DNA from: Lactiplantibacillus xiangfangensis
GTDB lineage: Bacteria; Bacillota; Bacilli; Lactobacillales; Lactobacillaceae
Length of the DNA: 64,000 nt
NCBI RefSeq assembly: GCF_001438845.1
Contig: NZ_JQCL01000057.1
Span: 182,911 to 246,910, forward strand
Reading direction: 5' to 3'
Shown here: in pieces, positions 15,090 through 37,089 of the stretch
How the letters are laid out: each line of letters begins with the position of its first letter
Numbering within the stretch: the first letter of the stretch is position 1
Program-made: the position numbers and the translations under genes
The notes under the pieces: model-generated
Database searches by the model: none
Told to the model about the DNA's origin: nothing
Seen by the model: only the letters and a program-made list of their open reading frames with translations

Positions 15090-15330
15090 CAAAATATAGA
15101 GAAATGTAGAAAATCATGGCTGATTTCTACATTTAGAAAGATTACATATTTCCTTTCTTGATTTTACTTGCTGCCGTTATGACGCCGGTATTCCGATATT
15201 CCACTAAGGAGTAATCGCATGGACCAACTATGACAGTTTAAGGACTTAGCCAGCCCCGTTAAGTTATTATTTTTTAGATTAAATCCAGTAGATTGGCAAC
15301 GGCATTTTCATCACGATCGAGTACTGCGCC
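15090..15330 (-). ncRNA. Predicted omega/reRNA scaffold overlapping the 3' end of tnpB
   Basis: By analogy with characterised TnpB systems, the guide RNA is made from the 3' part of tnpB plus the right end, with the guide taken from the flanking DNA. Here 15074-15273 is a non-coding stretch of about 200 bp with the right-end hairpin, so it is the expected place. No promoter was identified. The limits are nominal. Confidence 0.35.
15102..15134 (-). repeat. Right-end hairpin of the tnpB element
   Basis: A near-perfect stem: AAATGTAGAAAATCA pairs with TGATTTCTACATTT across a 4-base loop, with one bulged base. IS200/IS605 elements carry subterminal hairpins of this kind at each end, recognised as single strands by TnpA. 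Confidence 0.7.
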
Positions 15331-23390: not shown

Positions 23391-23396
23391 GAGCTC

Positions 23397-23445
23397 AAAA
23401 ACAGGATCTCAGAAATTCTTATGTGATTTCTGAGATCCTGTTTTT
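23397..23445. terminator. Strong bidirectional terminator
   Basis: A perfect 20-bp inverted repeat (AAAAACAGGATCTCAGAAAT and its complement) with a 9-base loop, A-run on one side and T-run on the other. Confidence 0.92.
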
Positions 23446-23463
23446 ATGTCTGTACTTGCTTCC

Positions 23464-23633
23464 GGCGGCTCGTAATGAGTGCCGCTATGGGACCGGTGAA
23501 AGCCTGAGGAACGGTCTTTCACCTCGCTTTAATGCTTTGCCTAACCCGCAAATCATTAAAGACGTCCGTGGTGTAAACGGGAAAATTCATCCCGTCAACA
23601 CCACCTTCACGGCGGCATTCATTACGAGCCGCC
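23464..23633. repeat. Cloverleaf-like intergenic element A
   Basis: A 22-bp closing stem (23464-23485 with 23612-23633, one G-U wobble) encloses three hairpin arms. Arm 1: GGTGAAAG / CTTTCACC (23495-23502, 23516-23523). Arm 2: CTTTAATG / CATTAAAG (23527-23534, 23554-23561) with an inner TTTGC / GCAAA. Arm 3: GTGGTGT / ACACCAC (23568-23574, 23598-23604) with an inner ACGGG / CCCGT. It contains no convincing gene. It shares its layout with the element at 35507-35668. Confidence 0.8.
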
Positions 23634-35429: not shown

Positions 35430-35448
35430 TTGGATTTTTGACTCAAAG

Positions 35449-35476
35449 AAAAAAGTCGACTTCGGTCGGCTTTTTT
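35449..35476 (+). terminator. fba terminator
   Basis: AAAAGTCGAC / GTCGGCTTTT with a UUCG tetraloop and a run of T, 20 bp past the stop. Confidence 0.92.
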
Positions 35477-35506
35477 GTTTACTATTAAAACGAAATCAAC
35501 CGTTCC

Positions 35507-35668
35507 GGCGGGTAGAACCGGTGTGCTGTGGCGGACGGCTCCAGCCATAGTGCGGTCTGGAGCCTCGATTCAAAGCCGACAAACCACGTCTTTGAATCGC
35601 CTTGCAACATCAGTCGGCTAGAAAACACCGTCTGATGTTGCTGACACAGCACACCAATTCTACCCGCC
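35507..35668. repeat. Cloverleaf-like intergenic element B
   Basis: A 24-bp closing stem (35507-35530 with 35645-35668, two adjacent mismatches) encloses three arms. Arm 1: GGCTCCAG / CTGGAGCC (35537-35544, 35557-35564). Arm 2: GATTCAAAG / CTTTGAATC (35567-35575, 35590-35598). Arm 3: GCAACATCAG / CTGATGTTGC (35604-35613, 35632-35641) with inner CGG / CCG. It holds no convincing gene. Arm 1 loop (CC...CGGT) and the CCTCG between arms 1 and 2 are shared with element A, while the stem sequences differ. Confidence 0.8.
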
Positions 35669-35717
35669 TTCGCTGAATACAGCTTTACAATTACTATTAG
35701 GTTTTAACTTAAGCCTG

Positions 35718-35766: not shown

Positions 35767-37089
35767 CTATGCTTCCTGATTAACGGCCGCTAATAATTGC
35801 CGCTCGTTATAAAAGAGTAATGTGATAAACATGATGACGTATAAAATTAATGGCAACCAGGCGTAATTCAACGTGATCATGTGTTGGGTCGCGAGGTTTT
35901 GCGCGTGATTAGCCGTGTAGCCAGACAAGTGGAACAGTCCGGCCGTAATAAGACCGCCAAATCCGAGGCCAACGTTAACCCCGAAGTCATCCGTCGAAGC
36001 TAAAATTCCTTCGGCTTGGATACCCATAGTCATGCCGTAACGAATCGTATCGGCAATCATGATTGAAACGAGTCCAATAATTAAGCCGTTCCCAATTGAA
36101 TTAATAAAGGTCCCAGTAAAAATAACGGCTAACTGATTGAGAATGGTTCCTAGGGCTAAAATTAATTGGCCAATGGTTGCTACGGCAATCCCGGTAAGCA
36201 TCGTTTGTTTCTTGCCGATTTTTTTGGATGTCCGGACGATCAAAACCACGCCAATCAACGCTGCAAAGGTAAAACCGTTGACCAGTGGTACTAGGTTTTC
36301 GTTGTTTTGTAAATATTTAAAGTAGTAGATGGTCGTTTGATTCTTAATGGCGGTCGTCAGCCAATATAATAAAATGACGATGGAAATAATAAACCACTGT
36401 TTATTTTTCTTGAGCATTTTCCAAACGTCTTTGAGTGGTTGATGGGCCTGTTCTGGTTGGCTAAAACGTTCTTTCACTTGGAAAAAGGTGTTCCAAATCA
36501 GTGCTAGCGAAATTAGACCAAACAGGATAATGGTATAGAGAAACCCGCTCTGTTGATTACCCTTACCGAAGAAGCTGACTAGTGGCAACGTGAAGACCGC
36601 TACGATAATTTGAACGGCGCTACCGAAAAATTGGCGAATCACGCCGAGTAACGTTAGCTCATGCTCGTTTTTAGACAACGTCGGTAAGATGGATGTAATG
36701 GGTAAATTGACTGCGGTATAGAAGAAGCCTAAGCCGAGGTAGGTGATGTAAGCCCAGATGAGTTTACCGTTCCCACTAAAGTTGGGGGTAACGAAAGTCA
36801 ACACGGCGAAGATCACGTACGGCAGCGCGTACCAGAGAAAGAAGGGGCGGCTTTTCCCAAAACGTGAATGGGTGTGGTCAATCATAATCCCAATAATCAA
36901 GCTTTCGATGACATCGGCTAAGCGCGCCACCACGAATAGAATGGCCGCCGCGCTAGCGGATAACCCGTAAACGTCTGTGTAAAAGAAAAGTAAATAGGTC
37001 GTCATCATTTGAAAGACTAGATTATCGGCCGCATCACTAAGGCCGTAGCTGATCCGCTCCGGCCATTTAGTTTGCCAAGGTTGATTCAA
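35767..37089 (-). CDS. GPH-family (MelB-like) sugar:cation symporter
   Basis: 440 residues with about twelve membrane segments. ISYGLSDAADNLVFQMMTTYLLFFYTDVYG is the conserved N-terminus of the glycoside-pentoside-hexuronide family; RLADVIESLIIGIMIDHTHSRFGKSRPFFLW carries the motif D-x(5)-D-x(2)-x-R-x-G-K-x-R-P. Substrate unknown: the lack of a neighbouring sugar enzyme gives no clue. It has no C-terminal EIIA-like domain, unlike LacS/RafP. Confidence 0.88.
   Translation of the reverse strand: MNQPWQTKWPERISYGLSDAADNLVFQMMTTYLLFFYTDVYGLSASAAAILFVVARLADVIESLIIGIMIDHTHSRFGKSRPFFLWYALPYVIFAVLTFVTPNFSGNGKLIWAYITYLGLGFFYTAVNLPITSILPTLSKNEHELTLLGVIRQFFGSAVQIIVAVFTLPLVSFFGKGNQQSGFLYTIILFGLISLALIWNTFFQVKERFSQPEQAHQPLKDVWKMLKKNKQWFIISIVILLYWLTTAIKNQTTIYYFKYLQNNENLVPLVNGFTFAALIGVVLIVRTSKKIGKKQTMLTGIAVATIGQLILALGTILNQLAVIFTGTFINSIGNGLIIGLVSIMIADTIRYGMTMGIQAEGILASTDDFGVNVGLGFGGLITAGLFHLSGYTANHAQNLATQHMITLNYAWLPLILYVIMFITLLFYNERQLLAAVNQEA

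Follow-up and report, generated by a model that had tools for sequence, protein, structure and literature searches.

BOX elements of pneumococci combine a closing stem around internal hairpins (boxA-boxB-boxC) and occur as many dispersed intergenic copies; the repeat family described here resembles them in its closing stem, its internal hairpins and its dispersed intergenic placement. IS4-family MITEs are comparable to a part of the family, with shared terminal repeats, an 8-bp target duplication, high copy number and intergenic location. They differ in that the cargo here consists of two covarying three-armed modules that are absent from the autonomous element, and in that IS4 ends are missing both from the copies of the window (the whole 64-kb stretch of Lactiplantibacillus xiangfangensis DNA analysed here) and from the loci inspected in other genera. 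Such MITEs are the nearest known kind for the elements with terminal repeats, REP and REPIN repeats being near in layout only. The latter (PMC3733652) are likewise palindromic, intergenic and arranged as facing pairs, some groups having no known transposase, whereas their palindrome of 20–40 bp (PMC2759123) is far smaller than the ~160-nt three-armed module found here. We rejected the Y1 transposase (RAYT) of such systems as mobiliser, since 6 of the 16 genomes that carry the family, including the own genome, are devoid of PF01797, which 3 of 5 non-carriers possess. The enterobacterial repeats RU-1 and RU-2 (PMC2759123) belong to other hosts; they are comparable in length and likewise small, mobile, intergenic and MITE-like. 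Within the open-licence literature we found no account of a three-armed facing-pair layout or of such a family in lactobacilli.

Element B of the window is a member of a real, widely dispersed, structured and mobile repeat family in lactobacilli. We favour the reading, with a probability of about 0.74, that the family is non-autonomous transposable DNA, of which B represents an old and solitary copy, and that its fold serves spreading and not the host at each individual site.

The folded module has a predicted energy of −94.4 kcal/mol, compared to a mean of −48.55 kcal/mol (sd 4.33) for shuffled versions, corresponding to a z-score of −10.59 with none of 200 shuffles as good. A sequence-only reading of this DNA had described a 24-bp closing stem with three arms; the closing stem and all three arms are borne out by the fold, the stem comprising 22 pairs instead, split by a 2 × 2 mismatch into 11 + 11 (Table 1). 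Arm 1 carries the pattern AGCC-N7-CGGTCT followed by CCTCG, which recurs in element A, so that the loop and linker previously seen as common to the two are indeed present in both, and the hairpin and T-run upstream of each, identified by eye, agree with the earlier observation that both follow a terminator. B is located between an ORF with a terminator-like hairpin, which we take to encode a fructose-bisphosphate aldolase, and a convergent ORF, presumably for a sugar transporter.

Table 1 Positions of the repeat modules and neighbouring features within the window.
Feature	Position	Strand	Basis or remark
Terminator-like hairpin and T-run upstream of A	23396–23446	+	sequence reading by eye
Module A, second solitary member in the window	23467–23630	+	model match 70.9 bits, model positions 1–162
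Upstream ORF, 287 aa	34566–35429	+	ORF list
Terminator-like hairpin and T-run of upstream gene	about 35448–35482	+	sequence reading by eye; part of one fold
B left edge outside closing stem	35484–35506	+	recurrent CCGYTCCG abuts stem; common to many copies
Module B	35507–35668	+	fold z −10.59, double-changed pairs, model score 179.5 bits
B closing stem, outer half	35507–35517/35658–35668	+	11 pairs
B closing stem, inner half	35520–35530/35645–35655	+	11 pairs
B arm 1	35537–35564	+	fold
B arm 2	35566–35599	+	fold
B arm 3	35604–35641	+	fold
B right edge	35669–35700	+	recurrent YCGCTAAAT and A/T-rich tail; common to many copies
Downstream ORF, 440 aa, convergent to upstream ORF	35767–37089	−	ORF list

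The kinship of the two elements was assessed with a covariance model built from 44 B copies with A excluded, which recovered A from end to end at 70.9 bits (rough E 3.8e-15). Recovery of A by a model free of A indicates that both belong to one family, in line with the common architecture proposed for them earlier. The corresponding score of 179.5 bits for B has to be read with B itself among the training copies, and its minus strand still reached 62.2 bits with the same model because the element is strongly palindromic. Within the 64-kb window the model detected no partner module for either element, both thus being solitary, and Rfam yielded no family at threshold at B or A, only weak chance matches. 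Elsewhere in the window, at 15179–15236 on the minus strand, Rfam family RF03014 (Transposase-1 RNA) was matched with 43.8 bits, its gathering score being 42.8.

A DNA search of the own genome located B-type copies at at least 40 places including B, with 76–100% identity (40 of 81 candidates scored); of its 41 matches, one was a 28-nt other-strand match on a copy already listed. Alignment of 42 B-type modules from this genome, two loci of which contain a second module, showed conserved loops and variable stems. For the analysis of covariation we used 44 of 51 non-redundant copies from several genomes, picked from 101 source copies from which matches below 55% query coverage had been excluded; the seven omitted copies looked truncated or divergent, a choice that slightly favours pairing. 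In this alignment 93.0% of the cells are paired (shuffles, 84.0%), changes on both sides are seen in 33 of 54 pairs (shuffles, 19.4), and the covariation score amounts to 0.278 versus 0.115, with none of 500 shuffles attaining any of the five pairing and covariation measures. Slid versions of the alignment pair in only 34–41% of cells. We conclude that these are non-coding DNA repeats whose three-armed shape is maintained across copies despite changes of the letters; the copies, their covariation and the genus- and family-wide model matches described below together substantiate the family of structured repeats that had been postulated from A and B.

Conserved loops and covariation would also be expected for a structured RNA family, whose copies yield or join a folded RNA, either a small RNA or an untranslated-region element, with dispersal being secondary. 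On the strand as read, A·C mismatches outnumber G·T pairs by 101 to 34 in 2363 cells, and by 72 to 28 in the 26 A-type rows of other genomes, as a folding minus strand would leave. This bias shrinks to 46 versus 24 in the 45 well-paired columns and is reversed in 17 modules of one genome (G015), with 46 G·T against 25 A·C. Wobble pairs are scarce overall, the 34 of 2363 cells contrasting with a G·T share of 6.1% among the marked stem pairs of 35 tRNAs of the own genome, which argues against the strand as read acting as RNA and leaves two candidates, folding at the DNA level and an RNA made from the opposite strand. Copies show hardly any preferred orientation toward genes ending at them (33 to 25), and no Rfam family was matched. 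We therefore lean towards a fold acting as DNA rather than RNA, and consider an RNA family rather improbable.

None of the 42 own-genome modules lies inside a long ORF; 20 are in convergent, 18 in tandem and 3 in divergent position, and one is at a contig edge. Compared to the local baseline, convergent placement is elevated (20/41 vs 21/77) and divergent placement reduced (3/41 vs 17/77). Such an intergenic distribution could reflect an element useful to the host as a transcription barrier or protector of mRNA ends and selected at each site, but tolerance of insertions would yield the same gene context. A search for recurrent neighbour genes at 39 own-genome loci returned no ORF family at more than four loci, the commonest ORFs overlying the module itself. 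Further points against host usefulness are the patchy distribution, 5 of the 21 genus members having no copies, the loss of the module at the window's locus in a sister genome (G004), and the mostly pair-breaking nature of changes at shared sites; we regard it as very improbable.

The loss in the sister genome (contig C69 near 88025, L226) is visible by eye: both edges of the B element are present there, the right one from about 35682, and approximately 163 nt of the module are absent, as though the palindrome had dropped out in one piece. We had considered this locus as an empty site, a candidate that was dismissed because the module was lost with its edges retained, hence providing no insertion boundary.

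Many B copies are adjoined by an A-like module in opposite orientation. With a DNA query, such a partner was found at 32 of 85 modules of the own and the sister genome, and in 15 of 20 loci taken from three further genomes, each of a different genus outside that of the window, a plus-strand module is followed by a minus-strand module. A common composite is formed by two facing modules of different sequence, each a unit of ~160 nt with a closing stem, three arms and fixed loops.

In some relatives the module pair resides inside an element of ~540 bp with IS4-family terminal repeats. Fourteen copies fetched from one such genome (G020), nearly identical and hence recent, were sufficiently alike to define the edges as (C)TAAAGGTTGAAAG ... 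CTTTCAACCTTTA(G), with lengths up to about 545 bp. The end 12-mer occurs as inverted pairs in six carrier genomes (15 + 16, 9 + 9, 10 + 10, 21 + 14, 46 + 50 and 19 + 19 on the two strands), compared to 0–2 per strand for the reversed 12-mer. The same ends, spaced 1565 bp apart, enclose a 457-aa IS4-family transposase (460 bits, cut-off 250), confirming a link to a transposase that the sequence-only reading had named as a check. Its second suggestion, target-site duplication, was borne out as well for elements with terminal repeats: among 31 two-ended elements (33 loci were given), comprising the insertion sequence itself and two-module, one-module and module-less forms, 26 are flanked by an 8-bp duplication with at least seven matches, whereas 300 permutations gave a mean of 1.24 and a maximum of 6. 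Membership in the MITE class is established for the elements that bear terminal repeats, but not for A and B.

Of 21 genomes of the genus, 5 gave a match to this transposase at E 1e-30, with long stop-free stretches only in G020 and G008, and the same search found no full transposase of this type in the own genome. The genome with 46 + 50 IS4-type ends, G015 (L096–L103, L141–L145), likewise had no such transposase at E 1e-30.

Most modules sampled in the own genome lack these ends. An IS4 end within one mismatch is found at 11 of its 42 B-type modules, the other 31 being near background, and the sister genome shows none within three mismatches at 14 modules. Gradual decay of IS4 ends in the own genome was not supported, the mismatch counts being two-peaked. 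No IS4 end is located near B, no terminal repeats were seen by eye in the flanks of A, and the loci examined in other genera are also devoid of IS4 ends. Repeats of 8 nt at the edges gave no significant duplication, neither for solitary copies (6 of 53, 2.43 in permutations, permuted maximum 8) nor for composites without ends (4 of 32 vs 2.77, maximum 8); the 8-bp repeat TTTGCTTA at both edges of locus L009 could be chance within that count. For B itself, TTACTATTA on both sides was rejected as a target duplication, as its right copy lies in the tail common to many copies and permutation gave no excess.

Based on the shared ends and the duplications, the IS4-ended composites were probably moved by a DDE transposase acting in trans, and the copies without terminal repeats may have spread by the same or by another enzyme. 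The fold would be maintained since copies lacking it spread less, and not by a need at each site; it might be adopted as a DNA hairpin or cruciform, with the conserved loops as putative sites for the transposase or a host protein. Alternatively, the paired three-armed module might constitute a mobile DNA class of its own, recognised in folded form through its loops by a new recombinase and captured by an IS4-type transposon in one genus, which we deem unlikely. Besides the non-autonomous family that we favour, compensatory pairs could arise by mutation alone, through template-switch repair of imperfect palindromes without any selection. The few wobble intermediates and a palindrome that can vanish as a block would fit such a process, but conserved loops, which no correction of pairing would preserve, speak against it, as does the fate of single changes at shared sites.

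For these comparisons we used 42 modules of the own genome and 43 fetched from the sister genome, a subset of all copies. Among own-genome paralogues (861 non-independent comparisons) at 20–30% divergence, double changes number 1852 and 2315 versus 1455 and 1866 broken pairs, and at 5–10% divergence 16 double stand against 40 broken. The 11 same-orientation shared-site pairs contain 16 double, 16 wobble and 54 broken changes. Six of the shared-site pairs have their closest counterpart at the same locus (0.89–0.98 identity; the second module of L025 and L039 omitted); these display 2 double, 2 wobble and 18 broken changes, so that single changes remain mostly uncorrected, making a purely mutational origin hardly credible. 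The compensatory change initially perceived between A and B is seen between copies at different sites, most changes at sites shared with the sister genome being pair-breaking. The predominance of broken pairs fits decay of resident copies; as paralogues at 5–10% divergence are also mostly broken, the distinction between decay at fixed sites and selection during spread is suggested rather than proven.

At five loci occupied in both genomes (L009/L048, L012/L158, L014/L059, L016/L164, L044/L153) the copies differ and point in opposite directions, and at L031/L115 and L036/L110 the orientation is the same with the co-located copy not being the best match. Differing copies at shared loci may point to preferred sites. 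At L031/L115 the B module is far more diverged than its flanks, the adjacent A-type module being nearly identical, as after gene conversion.

Searching with plain DNA gave matches in 12 of 60 relatives and 2 of 34 genera. The covariance-model scan of genomes, which had been put forward together with the initial description, was positive at E 0.001 for 16 of the 21 genomes available from the genus, the remaining five giving no model match at this threshold; its per-genome counts (up to 139 candidates) mix both strands of some copies and do not equal numbers of sites. Across the bacterial family, matches at E 1e-5 were obtained in 26 of 201 genomes and 7 of 40 genera, with up to 14 candidates scored per genome under stricter filters. 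The arm-1 core pattern occurs in at least 120 stretches; among the matches listed, 115 are Lactobacillaceae by title (Levilactobacillus, Lactiplantibacillus, Companilactobacillus, Secundilactobacillus, Furfurilactobacillus and an uncultured Lactobacillus), the other 5 coming from other bacteria, probably by chance. If our preferred reading is right, the unexplained intergenic repeats that number dozens per genome in several lactobacillus genera are one mobile family, in which folding rather than letters is passed on through spread. The family would then offer a natural test of whether mobile elements are selected for DNA hairpins or cruciforms, and could serve as a marker for strain comparison.

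No contig of the viral collection contained the arm-1 core pattern; B as query matched no plasmids or phages, and two other composites matched no plasmids. A query from another genus identified a partial relative on five plasmid records. In Loigolactobacillus backii and Pediococcus damnosus (L400 and L401, 3001–3202 in each), this plasmid-borne partial relative is intergenic and adjoins a gene for a MerR-type regulator.
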